34,266 nucleotides of DNA, taken from contig NZ_AUIG01000033.1 in the NCBI RefSeq assembly GCF_000423585.1, positions 1 to 34,266 on the forward strand. The letters run 5' to 3'. The notes under the pieces are model-generated. The model searched no databases and was not told where the DNA came from. It saw only the letters and a program-made list of their open reading frames with translations. Each line of letters starts with the position of its first letter. The first letter of the stretch is position 1. The DNA comes from Salinimicrobium xinjiangense DSM 19287 (GTDB taxonomy: Bacteria > Bacteroidota > Bacteroidia > Flavobacteriales > Flavobacteriaceae). The position numbers and the translations under genes are program-made. This document shows, in pieces, positions 2,408 to 24,702 of this stretch.

Positions 2408-5400
2408 ATGTACCTTATTTTTGATACTGAAACCACCGGACTTCCCAAGCGCTGGGATGCACCATTGACTGACAGTGATAACTGGCCGAGATGTATACAG
2501 ATCGCCTGGCAATTACATGATGATATGGGGCGGGTGATCGAGCATCAGGATTACCTGGTACAGCCCGATGGTTTTAATATTCCCTATGATGCAGAAAAAG
2601 TACACGGAATTTCAACCGAACTCGCTACAGAGCAGGGGGTAAGTCTCCAGGAAGTACTGGAAAAGTTCAATATTGCCCTGTTGAAGTCGAAATTCGTGGT
2701 GGGACAGAATGTTGGATTTGATGTGAACATCATGGGAGCCGAATTTCACCGGCTTCAAATGGAAAATAAATTACCTGAGCTTCCCGTGCTGGATACCTGT
2801 ACAGAGGTAACGGCACAACTTTGCTGCATTCCCGGGGGAAGGGGAGGAAAATTTAAACTTCCCACACTAACCGAACTGCATGAATTTTTATTCCACGAGC
2901 CTTTTGCTGAAGCGCATAATGCAACAGCCGATGTTGAGGCGACCACCCGCTGTTTCCTGGAATTAATCAGGAAACGCGTCTTCACTTCCGAGGAACTGGA
3001 TGCCAGACCCGGTTATTTTGAGAATTTTTCAGAAGTAAATCCGCAGCCCATAAAGCTCATTGGTCTCAAGCACATCAACCTTAAGGAAGCTTCGGCAGAG
3101 ATAAGGAAGAGACTTCAGAAGAAAGAGGATAAGGGAATATCTTCCGCAGAGATTAAAGAAAATCTGGAGAAACTTGATGAGGTTGCTTTTTCACACCTGC
3201 ACAACCACAGTCAGTTTTCTATTCTGCAATCTACAATCAGTATCAAAGATCTTGTAGATGCTGCAGGAAAACAGAATATGCCGGCAGTTGCACTTACAGA
3301 TCATGCCAACATGATGGGAGCTTTCCACTTCGTAAAGGAAGTGGGAGCATATAATAAAGGTGTCAAGGCAAAAAATGCGGCAGCGACAGAAAATGGAGAG
3401 GCCGCCGGTGCCCGGGAATTAAAAGCTATAATTGGCTGTGAATTCTTTGTGTGCGAAAATCATAAGGATAAATCCCGCAAAGACAACGGCTATCAAATCG
3501 TTTTACTTGCGAAGAATAAAAAAGGTTATCACAACCTCGCCAAGATGTCTTCCATCGCCTATACAGAAGGATTTTATTACGTGCCTCGAATTGACAGGGA
3601 AGTCATCAGGAAATACAAGGAAGATATAATTGTATTAACCGGAAATCTTTACGGGGAAGTACCCGGTAAGATCCTCAACGTCGGGGAGAATCAGGCTGAG
3701 GAAGCCCTCCTGTGGTGGAAGCAGGAATTCGGGGAGGACCTTTACGTGGAATTAATGCGCCACAATCAGGAAGATGAGAACAGGGTGAATCCTGTTTTGG
3801 TGGAGCTGGCAAAAAAACATGAAGTCAAACTGGTTGCTTCCAATAATACTTATTACTGTGAGCAGGAAGATGCCAATGCGCACGATATTTTACTTTGTGT
3901 GAAGGATGGTGAGAAGCAGGCAACGCCTATTGGCCGTGGCCGAGGTTACAGGTATGGGCTTCCAAATAGTGAATATTATTTTAAGAGCGGCGAGGAGATG
4001 AAGGCGCTTTTCAAGGACCTGCCGGAAGCTATTTCGAATGTTCAGGAGGTTGTGGATAAGATTGAGCCTTACGAATTGGCTAGAGATGTACTGCTGCCTG
4101 CCTTTACCATTCCAGAGAAATTTATTGTAGCTGAGGATGCTGTTGACGGTGGAAAAAGAGGAGAGAACGCTTACCTTAAACATATTACCTATGTGGGTGC
4201 CGAAAAACGATATGGAGAAATTACTCCAGCAATTAAGGAGCGGCTTGATTTTGAGCTTTCTGTAATTGAAAACACAGGTTATCCCGGTTACTTCCTTATT
4301 GTGGAGGATTTTATAAGGGAAGCCCGGAACATGGATGTGTCTGTAGGGCCCGGCCGTGGATCTGCAGCGGGAAGTGCTGTGGCTTATTGCCTGGGGATCA
4401 CAAATATCGACCCCATTAAATATGACCTGCTTTTTGAGAGATTCCTGAATCCCGATCGTGTAAGTATGCCCGATATTGATATCGACTTCGATGATGAAGG
4501 CCGAAGCAGGGTAATGGATTATGTAATTCAGAAATATGGGGCAAACCAGGTGGCACAAATTATCACCTATGGTACCATGGCTGCCAAATCTTCTATCAGA
4601 GACACGGCAAGAGTACTGGATCTTCCGCTAAATGAAGCCGACAGAATTGCCAAGCTCATACCAAATACCAAGCTTTCGAAGATCTTTGGTATGGATGAAA
4701 AAGAATTGCGAAGCAGCTTTAGAAGTGAGGAGCTTGATAAGGTTAATGAACTGCTCAACATAGCCGAGGGAGATGACCTGGAGGCGCAAACCATCAACCA
4801 GGCAAGGATCCTCGAAGGATCTGTTAGGAATACGGGAATTCACGCCTGTGGGGTGATCATTACACCGAGTGACATCACCAATTTCGTCCCTGTGGCCGTC
4901 GCAAAGGATTCCGATCTTTATGTGACCCAGTTTGACAACTCGGTTGTAGAAAGTGCCGGGCTGCTTAAAATGGACTTTTTGGGACTCAAGACCCTTACGC
5001 TGATAAAGGACACTGTGAAGATCGTAAAGGGACGTCATAATATAGATCTCGATCCCGACAGTTTTCCGCTGGATGATGAGAAGACCTATGAGTTGTTCCA
5101 GCGGGGAGAAACAGTAGGGATCTTCCAGTACGAATCCCCGGGAATGCAGAAGCACATGAAGGACCTGAAGCCTACGGTCTTTGATGATCTTATTGCGATG
5201 AACGCGCTTTACAGGCCGGGACCTATGGAATATATTCCGAGTTTTATTGCACGTAAACACGGAGATGAGGAAATCGCTTATGACCTTCCCGATATGGAGG
5301 AATACCTGAAGGAGACCTACGGGATTACCGTCTACCAGGAGCAGGTGATGTTGCTTTCCCAGAAGCTGGCCGGTTTTACGAAAGGTGAAGCAGATGTACT

Positions 5401-21509: not shown

Positions 21510-21893
21510 TTATGTGTTTTGGGGATAAAGAAAAGAATTAGTAACACCTGTCAAAAATGAGGTTTTGCAGGATCTTATAATTTGGTGGTTGAACTTAGGA
21601 AGAAAAGCCATACAGAAATCGCTTAAATTTCTGTTGTCGGTAGGTTCTTCGCTTGTCTCCGGAAATTCTTGAAATTCGTACCAGTCAGGAAAATAGAGAA
21701 GACCTGTATGTTCTGGAAAGAGCGGAATGCCATTCTCTGAAGGATAGAAATATTCTGTATCTATAAGTTTTTTGCGAAGAATTTTCTCCGCTTTTTCGGG
21801 GGAGAAATTTTCAGGATTAAGAAAAACAATATTTCCAAAGATTTTGTAATTGCCCTCATCCCGATGAAGGTACTGAAATGAAATATTACTCTT
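21510..21893 (-). pseudogene. Start-less gene remnant (127 codons)
   Basis: A minus-strand frame of 127 codons reads KSNISFQYLHRDEGNYKIFG, then NIVFLNPENFSPEKAEKILRKKL, IDTEYFYPSENGIPLFPEH and FPDWYEFQEF, ending FLYPQNT. The codon use and protein look genuine, and it resembles a small flavobacterial family that usually starts M-K-I-(S/T)-F-Q-Y-L-Y-R-D. No ATG, GTG or TTG lies in frame before the conserved start; an in-frame TAA stands at 21894-21896. Either the start codon was lost, or an ATT at 21882-21884 is used. It lies 45 bases downstream of the DUF3883 gene on the same strand. Its last codons overlap a copy of the dispersed AACACCT repeat. Confidence 0.55.
21543..21566. repeat. Dispersed 25-bp repeat, copy R1
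   Basis: AACACCT..CAAAAATG followed by GGTTTT matches R2-R5 in the first 17 bases and weakly after that. It lies left of the three-gene cassette, in the same orientation as the other copies. Confidence 0.5.
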
Positions 21894-21938: not shown

Positions 21939-22766
21939 TCAAAAGAAGCCCTTATAAGAAATAGGAAAAGAGTTACAAATCTCTCCAAGATTTCCATTCT
22001 TGATAAATAATTGGGCTCCTTTTTCAAAGTTAAAAAGTCGGTAGAGATGATATTTATCGGATTTATATTCTGAAAACAACAACTCGTTTCGAGAGAAGAA
22101 AAAAGGAGTTTCTTTGCCGAGAGTTGTTGTTTTTACTTCCACATATTTATCTGTCCCATCCAAATTTTTTGATAGTATATCAAACCCAGCCCCATCTCCT
22201 TCTTCTTGAGAGATCCACTTTACCTCTTCAGCTAATTTTTCCTTTCCAGTTTTTATTAAGTGCCATTTCTCATATTCCAGGATAAATTTTTCACCTAAGG
22301 CACCAAGCTTCGAATTTTTCTGTTCTTTTTCCAGATAATTAATCTTAATAGGATTTCGATTATAGGCAGAAGGTGGTTCAGAGACAGCAGAAATGGCCGG
22401 GGCGTTAACAATGAGTTTGTTGAAATTATGTTGTCCCGAGATTCGAGGTACCTTGTCAACATAGAGCTTAAATTTTTTTTCAATGGAGTTGTTGAGAATT
22501 AAATAGTCGATCACTTTTTCCTCCAAAATCTTCTGGTAATTATAACGAGGCAGGTACCCTCGAATATAGAGTTGTCCCAGATTTATTAAAACTGCACTTA
22601 TATTCTGATGTTTAAATTCAATGGACCCTTCAGATCTATTGTTAAGTAAAGGCATTAAGGTTCTTCTATGTTCTGCCTTAGAATAATTTTCATCTGCCAG
22701 TTCTGCTGCCAACATAGAAAAGTAGTCAGCTACAATTAACTCAACTTCTAATTCGGACCAGCTCAT
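21939..22766 (-). CDS. DUF3883 protein with PD-(D/E)XK-like signature
   Basis: A 275-residue protein, third and last gene of the cassette. Residues 1-90 form a helical domain with the motif RRTLMPLLNNRSEGSIEFKHQNIS and GYLPRYNYQK, a module I associate with DUF3883 and HNH proteins of restriction-like loci. Residues 150-262 are DUF3883 (the NO VEIN C-terminal domain): GALGEKFILEYEK with Glu159, GAGFDILS with Asp196, YVEVKTTT with Glu210-x-Lys212, then FFFSRNEL. The D...ExK spacing is that of PD-(D/E)XK nucleases, so a DNA-cutting role is likely but unproven. It starts 16 bases after the methyltransferase-HIT gene. There is no signal peptide; it is probably cytoplasmic. Confidence 0.82.
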   Translation of the reverse strand: MSWSELEVELIVADYFSMLAAELADENYSKAEHRRTLMPLLNNRSEGSIEFKHQNISAVLINLGQLYIRGYLPRYNYQKILEEKVIDYLILNNSIEKKFKLYVDKVPRISGQHNFNKLIVNAPAISAVSEPPSAYNRNPIKINYLEKEQKNSKLGALGEKFILEYEKWHLIKTGKEKLAEEVKWISQEEGDGAGFDILSKNLDGTDKYVEVKTTTLGKETPFFFSRNELLFSEYKSDKYHLYRLFNFEKGAQLFIKNGNLGEICNSFPISYKGFF

Positions 22767-22782
22767 AAAATCTGTAGTCTTT

Positions 22783-23637
22783 TTAATAATCTTTTTTTTC
22801 AGGAATAACTCCTCTCACACCTCCTCTAGGATTTTCAACATCTTTATCGTAACGAGGAATAATATGGATATGGCAATGAGGGACCGTTTGACCTGCAGTT
22901 TCATTTATATTAATACCGATATTAAATCCTGAAGGGGAATATTCTTTTACTAAATCTGCTTGAATCTTATTTACCATAAACCAGCAGGCAGATTGTTCTT
23001 GAAAATTTAATTCAAAGTAATTAGAGACTTTCTTTTTTGGGATGATTAGGGTATGACCTTTTGATACAGGAAATTTATCTTCTATAACAAATACTGTGGC
23101 CATTTCTCCTTTTTGTTTTTTGGTCTCATCATCAGCAAAAAAAGGGGAAATCTCTTCTTTGCCTTTATTTAAATACGCGTAATGCTGATATTCATAGATC
23201 TCTACATTCTCATTTTTATACACGGATCTAAAAGGAAGAATCACATTGCATTGGTAAGTTTCTTTTTTATGAATTTTATGGAATCTAAAGCCTGGTTTTT
23301 CAATGTCCCGTCGTACTGCAAAATAAGCCTTGCCTCCATAATTCAGCAACTTTGAAATTTCATTAATTACTGTGGCTTGTTCTTGAGGTAAGAGAACGTT
23401 TAAAACGTAGAGACAAATGATAGTGTCAAATTTGCCATTAGGATAGTTACTGAAGTAGTAAGGATCATAGCCTTCGATATCAATTTTATGGTTTTTAAGT
23501 ACTTCAACATCTTTCCCTAAACCACAGCCAAAATCTAACACCTCCCCATTTAAAAGATCTCTTTCTTTAAGTATCCTTGCAGGAAAAGAAAGTTTATCCC
23601 TTTCTTTTGCAGTAAAGTGGCTATATGGATTTTTCAT
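22783..23637 (-). CDS. SAM-dependent methyltransferase fused to HIT domain
   Basis: A 284-residue two-domain protein. Residues 1-150 are a class I methyltransferase: motif I VLDFGCGLGKDV (34-44), the acidic loop IEGYDPYYF (54-62), FDTIICLYVLNVL (70-82) and GGKAYFAVRRD (101-111). Residues 165-275 are a HIT domain: GHTLIIPKKKVSNYFEL (194-210), GFNIGININETAGQTVPH (237-254) and the HxHxHxx active site HCHIHII (254-260), with His256 as the expected nucleophile. HIT proteins cleave nucleoside-phosphate linkages such as AMP-lysine, dinucleoside polyphosphates or adenylated DNA ends. The gene begins 3 bases after the HNH gene and ends 16 before the DUF3883 gene, so the three are one transcription unit. 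Substrates are unknown. Confidence 0.88.
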   Translation of the reverse strand: MKNPYSHFTAKERDKLSFPARILKERDLLNGEVLDFGCGLGKDVEVLKNHKIDIEGYDPYYFSNYPNGKFDTIICLYVLNVLLPQEQATVINEISKLLNYGGKAYFAVRRDIEKPGFRFHKIHKKETYQCNVILPFRSVYKNENVEIYEYQHYAYLNKGKEEISPFFADDETKKQKGEMATVFVIEDKFPVSKGHTLIIPKKKVSNYFELNFQEQSACWFMVNKIQADLVKEYSPSGFNIGININETAGQTVPHCHIHIIPRYDKDVENPRGGVRGVIPEKKDY

Positions 23638-23640
23638 TTT

Positions 23641-24702
23641 TTAAAGATATTCAAAGCCATTATTATGCGCTGTTGCTACTAAAGGTGATAAAACATCGTG
23701 AAACCTCTCTGGTGTAAAATCTTCCTCACCTTTTAATCTGGGAAACACAGTTCGATATTCTTCTTCGAATTTTTTGTTTGGCTTTAATTGTCTAAGAGTA
23801 AAAAAAGCATCTTTTTGAAACTGAAAGAATTTCTGAAAATAGAAATCAAGATGAGGTAACTTGCTATTTTTTGAAGAGTTAAATGTTGGATCAACAGGTA
23901 TTAAATTCCAAATTAAATCGTGAGAAACAAAGGCATATGGAATAAAATGATCAAGCGCATAATTCTCGGGATCTAATAGCTTATTAGTAAAAATACATCG
24001 CGCTCCTTGTCTATGCTTAAGATATGTAGTCCAGTAACTATTTCGCTGTTGAGTTAAAGAATTTCGTTTGGCAGGTTTTATAAGTTTATTAGGAATATCA
24101 GGGACATTGGGATTGCGGGCTTGTAAAAACAAGGATAAATTCCAATAGCAAAATTCTTTTAGGAGTTTAGCATGAGTCCTGAAATACTTGTACCATGTTT
24201 CATCAATAATTATTTTTTGATCGAAGAGTGCATACGGAGGTTTGTTCTCGAACTCCTTTGACAATGAGTAAATTTCCTGTCTTTTCTTTTTTTTGTACCA
24301 CGGACTGAGGAACCAGTGAGGGACATTTTTATCAAAATGAAGAAGTTTTTTCTGGGTCTCATAGTGAGGGGAATCCTTCAATCTTTTCTCAATTTCAGTC
24401 TTTTGCAGAGTTATTGGAAGATTCTCTAAATTTTGAACGAATTTAATACTTGACTGAATTTTGTCTTGACTACCAAATGACAATTTGAAGAAACTGACTG
24501 TGTACCAAGGATGAGAAAGCATTTTTGCAAAGAGATCTAATTTATTTATTTCTCTCTTACCGCTTTCAATGCTATCAATGATTGCTAAAAACCAAAAGAA
24601 TTTATACGTAGCAGAGGTGTTATTGAAAACCTGTGCTAACTTTTGAATCGGTAGATCTTCGTATCCAGGTAAAAAATCCGAAACTATAGTTCGTTTACTC
24701 AT
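23641..24702 (-). CDS. HNH endonuclease-like protein, first gene of cassette
   Basis: A 353-residue protein whose first 220 residues are helical and unrecognised. They open MSKRTIVSDFLPGYEDLP, with STFxxF-like TYKFFWFLAIIDSI. The C-terminal third has an HNH/His-Me finger core. CIFTNKLLDPENYALDHFIPY has Asp251-His252 as the metal/catalytic pair, and HDLIWNLIPVDPTFNSSKNSKLP has Asn266 and Asn275 with Lys278. This DHFIP..WNL.P....NSSK arrangement is typical of HNH proteins in restriction and defence loci. Only one of the usual zinc cysteines (Cys236) is seen. The gene leads the operon. It is AT-rich compared with the flanking chromosome, suggesting transfer. A dyad ATTCA/TGAAT overlaps its start codon. 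Confidence 0.85.
   Translation of the reverse strand: MSKRTIVSDFLPGYEDLPIQKLAQVFNNTSATYKFFWFLAIIDSIESGKREINKLDLFAKMLSHPWYTVSFFKLSFGSQDKIQSSIKFVQNLENLPITLQKTEIEKRLKDSPHYETQKKLLHFDKNVPHWFLSPWYKKKKRQEIYSLSKEFENKPPYALFDQKIIIDETWYKYFRTHAKLLKEFCYWNLSLFLQARNPNVPDIPNKLIKPAKRNSLTQQRNSYWTTYLKHRQGARCIFTNKLLDPENYALDHFIPYAFVSHDLIWNLIPVDPTFNSSKNSKLPHLDFYFQKFFQFQKDAFFTLRQLKPNKKFEEEYRTVFPRLKGEEDFTPERFHDVLSPLVATAHNNGFEYL

Follow-up and report, generated by a model that had tools for sequence, protein, structure and literature searches.

A conserved, apparently unnamed pairing of HNH nuclease and methyltransferase-HIT genes in Bacteroidota, its exchangeable nuclease and its apparent historical tie to DNA phosphorothioation

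Three intact open reading frames (ORFs) follow one another on the minus strand of the Salinimicrobium xinjiangense DSM 19287 contig NZ_AUIG01000033.1, the 34,266 nucleotides of which are referred to here as the window. They encode an HNH nuclease, a SAM (S-adenosylmethionine)-methyltransferase fused to a HIT domain (MT-HIT), and a DUF3883 protein, with gaps of 3 bases between the first two and 16 bases between the second and third (Table 1). A sequence-only reading had put the trio forward as an undescribed three-gene system. The positions and spacing that it gave were borne out by the ORF listing and its domain assignments by Pfam (HNH_4; Methyltransf_23 plus HIT; NOV_C). Pfam also agreed that the flanking genes are unrelated to the three; one encodes a protein of the beta-lactamase family and the other a dioxygenase_C-like protein. 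The genes are also AT-rich as described, with a GC content, taken per 1 kb, of 0.32-0.36 between 22 and 25 kb versus 0.335-0.533 in the rest of the window. It is two of the three genes, those for HNH and MT-HIT, that appear to form a conserved and widespread bacterial gene pair, next to which DUF3883 is judged to be a separate neighbor.

Table 1. Features of the HNH and MT-HIT pair and its neighbor (positions in the window)
Feature	Position	Strand	Source
HNH nuclease gene, class 'HNHa', 353 amino acids (aa)	23641-24702	-	ORF listing, Pfam
HNH_4 domain, residues 239-284	23851-23988	-	Pfam PF13395, E 1.2e-8
MT-HIT gene (SAM-methyltransferase fused to HIT domain), 284 aa, constant partner	22783-23637	-	ORF listing, Pfam
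Methyltransferase part of MT-HIT, residues 19-108	23314-23583	-	Pfam PF13489 (Methyltransf_23), E 5.3e-11
HIT domain of MT-HIT, residues 179-264, HCHIHII motif	22846-23103	-	Pfam PF01230, E 6.5e-20
DUF3883/NOV_C gene, 275 aa, PDC-S36 homologue, judged outside the pair	21939-22766	-	NOV_C (Pfam), E 2.5e-21; PADLOC

When 15 aligned MT-HIT proteins served as the query, GTDB species genomes yielded 359 relatives, and the locus counts given below refer to the best 80 of these 359, which by record title include at least 66 from Bacteroidota and three from Ignavibacteriota. By profile, 79 of the 80 MT-HIT genes were directly preceded by an HNH gene, which mostly overlapped MT-HIT by 4 to 44 bases; 53 of these nucleases were best matched by class a (two weakly, and one as a 55-aa piece) and 26 by a second class, b. 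The 80th locus (L080) had a 76-aa piece upstream of MT-HIT that clustered with a third HNH class. Some of the loci are not independent, L151/L152 and L130/L131 having identical or nearly identical MT-HIT proteins. Moreover, in an even draw of 306 genomes of the phylum, MT-HIT was present in 17, with HNHa or HNHb upstream in 16 and, in the 17th (G282), a 305-aa HNH protein of another family 3 bases away. The expectation that the genes stay together across genomes was thus supported for HNH and MT-HIT and contradicted for DUF3883 (0/80), and the scattering of homologues that had been named as evidence against a system was seen for DUF3883 and not for the pair. PADLOC 2.0.0 has no model of its own for either pair protein, HNH being matched best by Cas9 HNH domains (E 3.5e-4) and MT-HIT by ThsC, a HIT protein (E 7.5e-8), and two HNHs among the loci weakly matched PDC-M01B (E 9.5e-5 and 6.7e-4). 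The earlier view that no named defense system was at hand therefore stands for the pair and not for DUF3883, which corresponds to the catalogued singleton PDC-S36. A literature search joining HIT, HNH, and methyltransferase found no paper, in a search that did not cover preprints and barely covered subscription papers. Decayed nucleases preceded MT-HIT in L143 (the 55-aa piece), L080 (the 76-aa piece), and L131, where HNH was split into two ORFs.

The HNH protein consists of a mostly helical N-terminus of approximately 200 residues, a Cas9-like HNH_4 domain, and C-terminal helices. Among its catalytic residues, C236, H252, N266, N275, and K278 were invariant in 31 aligned rows; this agrees with the His252, Asn266, and Asn275 singled out from the sequence alone and not with Asp251, which was in neither the invariant nor the 90% list. 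In MT-HIT, D35, G37, G39, and G41 of the methyltransferase and H254, H256, and H258 of the HIT domain were invariant in 35 aligned rows. The predicted models had pLDDT values of 85.6 (MT-HIT) and 84.2 (HNH). The fold of the HIT half matched those of HIT proteins (e.g., Bacillus subtilis Hit, 1y23, E 3.6e-9), and this predicted fold combined with an HxHxHxx motif places MT-HIT among the putative HIT nucleotide hydrolases/transferases. For HNH, a fold search of the PDB gave nothing at E <= 0.001; Cas9 HNH domains came closest, with E-values from 0.096 upward, and the first 200 residues of the protein had no fold match. Classes a and b aligned over the nuclease part and the preceding helix only (120 columns, probability 97.8). 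Within Pfam, MT-HIT matched Methyltransf_23/11/12/25 and HIT only, and no DNA-methylase family. Its residues 7-82 also matched TIGR04096, a DNA-phosphorothioation-associated putative methyltransferase (E 1.6e-14, 78/478 model positions), as did all 35 of the aligned members, indicating that the two share a homologous methyltransferase core. In L051 (1315-2982, minus strand) and L041 (1243-2964, minus strand), a class-b HNH was fused to an extra N-terminal methyltransferase (Methyltransf_25), with MT-HIT following in L051.

Comparisons between loci indicated that the nuclease gene has been swapped as a unit before a constant MT-HIT. In a tree built from 89 MT-HIT proteins, the HNH class required 22 changes (23-34 with shuffled labels), and the strongly supported branches alone forced at least nine for the largest group; this was a quick tree, 36 of the 84 inner branches of which were weakly supported, with L080 labelled by hand as the third class and L143 left out. 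The clearest example of an exchange in place is that of Algoriphagus limi (L117, class b) and Algoriphagus kandeliae (L148, class a). Upstream, the two were 96% identical across 6849 columns that ended 38 and 25 bases ahead of the HNH start; downstream, they were 90% identical across 8850 columns that began 4 and 3 bases past the HNH stop. Protein identity between these two was 99% for AtpG, 94% for MT-HIT, and 26% for HNH in a forced alignment. Similarly, MT-HIT and 8.9 kb downstream were 95% identical between Aquiflexum (L136, class b) and Cognataquiflexum (L145, class a), with HNH at 24% and unlike upstream flanks, while two Kaistella loci (L093, class a; L100, class b) had MT-HIT proteins of 86% identity and a partly common downstream flank.

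The partner in G282 extended the exchange to a further HNH family. It matched NF045808, a model for restriction endonucleases that bind phosphorothioated DNA (E 3.5e-25, positions 17-281 of 284), as well as HNH_2, and its N-terminus matched SBDHga, a sulfur-binding domain of solved structure (8h0l, E 2.3e-7). When its locus (L286) was compared with the class-b loci L287-L289, the alignable parts were a stretch of 66-77 bases just before the nuclease and the MT-HIT gene itself, and neither the nuclease nor the outer flanks. The shared stretch (4137-4202 in L286, against L287, L288, and L289) was 79-82% identical despite the unlike nucleases that it precedes, and is perhaps the leader of the cassette itself. 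An McrBC-like gene is convergent with the pair in this genome (L282, 2362-3807, minus strand), and in L134 (8877-9650) a second HNH gene (HNH_2), distantly resembling the sulfur-binding-domain (SBD)-HNH of G282, lies directly downstream of an HNHa and MT-HIT pair.

Relatives of both pair proteins were found inside phosphorothioation (PT) loci, and by comparison of sequences one MT-HIT partner, that of G282, is a homologue of a restriction enzyme that binds PT-DNA. The link to DNA modification that had been suggested before any database search is indicated by these relatives. HNHa relatives without MT-HIT stood beside sspB, sspC, and sspA or sspD in five of 16 loci examined. Such relatives accompanied sspA, B, C, and D in Hymenobacter (L244) and lay in ssp loci of G249 (L194), Cyanobacterium HL-69 (L236, in the order sspB-sspC-HNHa-sspD-dndB), Geminocystis (L240), and Leptolyngbya (L241, in the order TIGR04096-sspB-sspC..HNHa-sspA). 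Partial PT sets were beside HNHa in Synechocystis pSYSM, Synechococcus NIES-970, and Annamia, and TIGR04096 proteins were encoded by three HNHa plasmids (L025, L239, L241); no PT genes were seen near HNHa in L238/L243. The plasmid search with query P0001 matched 16 records, 12 of which were read; a single Synechocystis plasmid is present in three copies, and a Segatella record covering 14% of the query was left out. For the Bacteroidota pairs, the PADLOC labels given to neighbors were SspA, SspB, SspC, SspD, and PbeA.

The PT genes next to the pair were often broken. In 12 of the 80 loci, HNH started 10-354 bases behind a PT-gene fragment on the same strand, which came from sspB in L083, L132, L133, L140, L146, L151, and L153, from sspA in L096, L130, and L131, from sspC in L137, and from pbeA in L129, the weak cases being L083 (SspB piece with E 8e-5) and L137 (SspC piece starting at a contig end). 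In L095 and L141 an ssp or pbe fragment lay farther upstream, and a complete SspC was beside the pair in none of the 80 loci. In L065 (G267), SspB was complete and SspC was cut at approximately residue 737, 34 bases before HNH. An intact counterpart, L183, has the order sspB-C-D-two ORFs-sspA-pbeABCD; against it, L141 retains SspB (93% identity) and PbeD (89%), its SspC stops at approximately residue 216, and the place of the stretch from there to before pbeA is taken by the pair, which precedes PbeABCD, along with other genes. In L153, everything from SspB residue 59 to PbeD residue 71 has been replaced. The PT-remnant label required nine changes on the MT-HIT tree versus 12-16 when shuffled, so that the remnants are clustered yet do not trace to a single event. 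MT-HIT adjoined none of 20 intact ssp loci from the phylum, save for a HIT-only match in L195, where a HIT-like end piece (4608-4781, minus strand; MT-HIT residues 227-284) lies beside an intact ssp operon.

Genome-wide counts were made in 61 pair genomes, namely 12 phylum genomes and 49 from the 80 loci (L138 left out), the latter picked for long contigs and including most of the known PT-remnant loci. SspB was fragmentary in eight of the 12 SspB-bearing pair genomes versus one of 20 without the pair, and by this choice of genomes the figures of 8/12 and 11/12 for SspB are enriched. In the even sample alone, SspB was broken in two of three pair genomes versus one of 20 without the pair (p 0.034). 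The counts leave out the weak matches to SspB in G140 and G438. SspD occurred in four of the 61 pair genomes, in three of them as the copy beside the pair, versus 20 of 390 in the background (p 0.55), so that neither association nor exclusion of pair and SspD is detectable genome-wide, and DndC occurred in none of the 61; together these counts argue that the pair does not need PT. Pair and PT are not strictly incompatible, since G111/G439 carries the pair (L059) as well as an intact ssp operon (L184).

The sequence relationships of the pair support a two-gene module whose nuclease can be exchanged and whose history is tied to PT. We suggest, with a rough probability of 0.4, that HNH and MT-HIT form a restriction-type module that has PT ancestry and in which host PT became dispensable through MT-HIT. 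The HNH nucleases would derive from the effector nucleases of PT systems, and they would cut invading DNA upon reading a DNA mark or state via their variable N-terminus. MT-HIT would take the part of the PT genes for the nuclease, either in self/foreign discrimination or in restraint of the nuclease, and the sspBCD modification genes, by then dispensable, would decay in place. It is from sequence relationships that we infer restriction of invading DNA, and with it a defense activity and this role of MT-HIT. Since unlike nucleases stand before one MT-HIT, the latter should act on something common to them, for instance their HNH domain, DNA ends, or a nucleotide signal, and not on one recognition sequence; the same observation argues against a classical, sequence-matched restriction-modification pair. 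It is possible that, as first proposed, MT-HIT controls or reverses a modification that the nuclease detects. In a more far-reaching version, which we hold only tentatively, one MT-HIT would license or restrain four or more unlike HNH nucleases, swapped singly at a fixed junction, and its arrival would make DNA-sulfur marking dispensable, repeatedly supplanting PT operons.

Several observations weigh against a module of PT ancestry. No ssp or pbe fragment was upstream of the pair in 66 of the 80 loci, no convincing PT gene or remnant was found in the window (best E-values 0.07-1), and the genome from which it comes had no matches to SspB, SspD, or DndC (model PDLC02662). The coexistence of pair and intact ssp operon in G111/G439, and the indistinguishable SspD frequencies given above, point the same way. 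Both profile matches that tie the pair to PT fall short of their curated cut-offs (MT-HIT to TIGR04096, 53.5 versus 150 bits; the G282 partner to NF045808, 88.7 versus 180 bits). Neither PT genes nor MT-HIT were near HNHa in several of the 16 loci (e.g., L021, L057, L233, L234, L237), and HNHa hence does not always need either. In favor of such a module, ssp B, C, and A or D were beside HNH in none of 81 loci with MT-HIT versus five of 16 without it (Fisher p 7e-5), although kinship confounds this comparison, as the five loci are largely from cyanobacterial plasmids and the 81 come from Bacteroidota and Ignavibacteria.

The main rival is a type IV-like, PT-directed restriction, in which exchangeable nucleases would cut phosphorothioated incoming DNA and MT-HIT would be an accessory, for example in handling modified or adenylated DNA ends. 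We consider it somewhat unlikely overall, and it accounts for G282 and for the broken operons better than a module that made host PT dispensable. The G282 partner, with its sulfur-binding-domain match, sits in a genome without an SspB or SspD match, and 57 of the 61 pair genomes lack SspD and all 61 lack DndC. ScoMcrA, a type IV enzyme, and PT genes are reportedly not tolerated together, which we count in favor of this rival; if uptake of the pair was survived only where the genome's own PT operon was broken, the ssp remnants at pair loci would follow. HNHa relatives inside intact ssp operons (L194, L236, L240, L244) argue that class a tolerates host PT, and G111 likewise maintains an intact ssp operon with the pair. 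A partner of the sulfur-binding type was moreover seen in only one of the 17 even-sample genomes and in none of the 80 loci, and PT-directed cleavage would not make MT-HIT constantly necessary. A pair independent of PT, acting in restriction or abortive infection, in which HNH would be a toxin-like effector, MT-HIT its antidote or the maker or breaker of a nucleotide signal, and the PT remnants a product of defense-island turnover, seems to us unlikely. HIT domains act on nucleotides, and the HIT half of the fusion matches the fold of Ap4A-type HIT proteins; its methyltransferase is of the small-molecule type (Methyltransf_23); the MT-HIT of L143 retains only a 55-aa piece of HNH, as expected of an antidote; and the 66 loci without an upstream fragment fit as well. 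Against these stand the closest contextual relatives of both proteins, which are in PT loci, the specificity of ssp fragments as neighbors (the 8/12 versus 1/20 for fragmentary SspB, in pair genomes that were not randomly drawn), and the 16 loci with HNHa and without MT-HIT, from which it follows that HNHa is not simply a toxin needing MT-HIT.

A homing-type or mobile cassette, whose HNH would cut ssp and other genes so that the cassette is copied in, with MT-HIT aiding its spread, is very unlikely in our estimation. It would explain the same-strand insertions behind 5' ssp fragments, the boundaries (66-77 bases before the nuclease, and the MT-HIT end) common to the otherwise unlike sites L286 and L287-L289, and the exchange of nucleases at a fixed site. 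The sites themselves vary, being after atpG in Algoriphagus, in a mutS neighborhood in L074, and in ssp elsewhere; the junctions within ssp also differ between loci, and full-length MT-HIT was not found on viral contigs, where none of 23 relatives covered the methyltransferase part. These 23 (L245-L267) are HIT-only relatives whose matches fall within MT-HIT residues 162-284, at up to 61% identity. Query P0001 had no match on viral contigs. A C-terminal part of HNHa lies at the end of one viral contig (L268, 3-632), the 6.6 kb of which lack MT-HIT. The least probable alternative, to which we give hardly any credence, is that HNH, MT-HIT, and DUF3883 act together as the three-gene system first proposed. 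It draws on the shared strand and the short gaps in the window and on G072 (L068), where a third-class-like HNH lies 938 bases downstream of a full-length DUF3883 homologue and points toward linkage. Full-length DUF3883 was found in none of the 80 MT-HIT loci (flanks of up to 8 kb), and on this count we reject the trio as a conserved unit. It was present in five of 296 phylum genomes (any DUF3883 match, 18/296), and in the loci compared among these five, MT-HIT adjoined it in the genome of the window only. The family was represented on plasmids by 1210 records, 1118 of which covered at least 80% of the query, mostly from Enterobacteriaceae at approximately 41% identity; the one stretch read for its setting (L023, 10001-10819, from Enterobacter hormaechei) had DUF3883 among transposases/insertion sequence elements and resistance genes, without HNH or MT-HIT. 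DUF3883 of the window matched the PADLOC model PDLC05008 PDC-S36 (E 2.7e-98; protein residues 2-273, model positions 6-277 of 280), and we judge it a separate defense candidate that lies beside the pair. A literature search for 'PDC-S36' found no paper, within the same limits of coverage as above.

Among known systems, SspABCD with its associated nucleases and PbeABCD resemble the pair most in context: HNHa relatives occur within or beside ssp operons, the pair sits behind broken ssp or pbe genes, and its methyltransferase is akin to TIGR04096. They differ in that the window has no PT genes and its genome no SspB, SspD, or DndC, in the HIT fusion, and in that a complete SspC accompanied none of 80 pairs. 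PT-dependent SBD-HNH enzymes of NF045808, which we take to be ScoMcrA-type, are linked to the pair through G282, where such an HNH replaces the usual one before MT-HIT; the HNH of the window had neither an NF045808 match at E 0.01 nor a detectable sulfur-binding domain. As in type II restriction-modification, a nuclease gene adjoins a methyltransferase gene with tight overlap, but here the methyltransferase is not a DNA methylase by Pfam, is fused to HIT, and stays constant while the nuclease changes. Cas9 and IscB-type RNA-guided nucleases differ by their RuvC domain, for which Pfam found no counterpart beside the window's HNH, where HNH_4 was accompanied only by a weak, chance-level ING match. 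The likeness to PDC-S36, a PADLOC candidate, over residues 2-273 concerns the DUF3883 gene alone. DndDE-type cores (CxC/DndDE systems) can carry cytosine methylases in place of PT, according to Rakesh et al. 2024 (PMC10853773), and parallel the pair in that one modification module is replaced by another; their core proteins are different ones, and a term search found no HIT domain in the main text of that paper. The main text of a BREX survey (PMC12839542) likewise had no match for 'HIT domain'.

If the proposed module is real, one regulator enzyme would serve several unrelated nucleases, providing a rare natural test of how a changing DNA-cutting enzyme is kept safe, and a system present in about one in 18 genomes of the phylum sample (17/306) would gain a name. 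It would also account for the frequently broken PT operons of pair-carrying Bacteroidota genomes, and would give a DNA-defense function to the HIT domain and a function to a long-unexplained methyltransferase family beside PT genes.

An empty counterpart of the window's site was sought in 30 relatives via the beta-lactamase neighbor, which yielded two distant copies only (54% and 46% identity). In the window, a 127-codon open stretch at 21513-21893 (minus strand), 3' of DUF3883, lacks a preceding start and is absent from the ORF listing; with no Pfam match, and no homologue among the compared loci, it is possibly the remnant of a lost gene. Elsewhere, two small ORFs (approximately 80 and 78 aa, without Pfam matches) recur either in the interval from MT-HIT to pbeA or immediately after MT-HIT in L141 (8846-9343), L137, L151, L122, L112, and L139.

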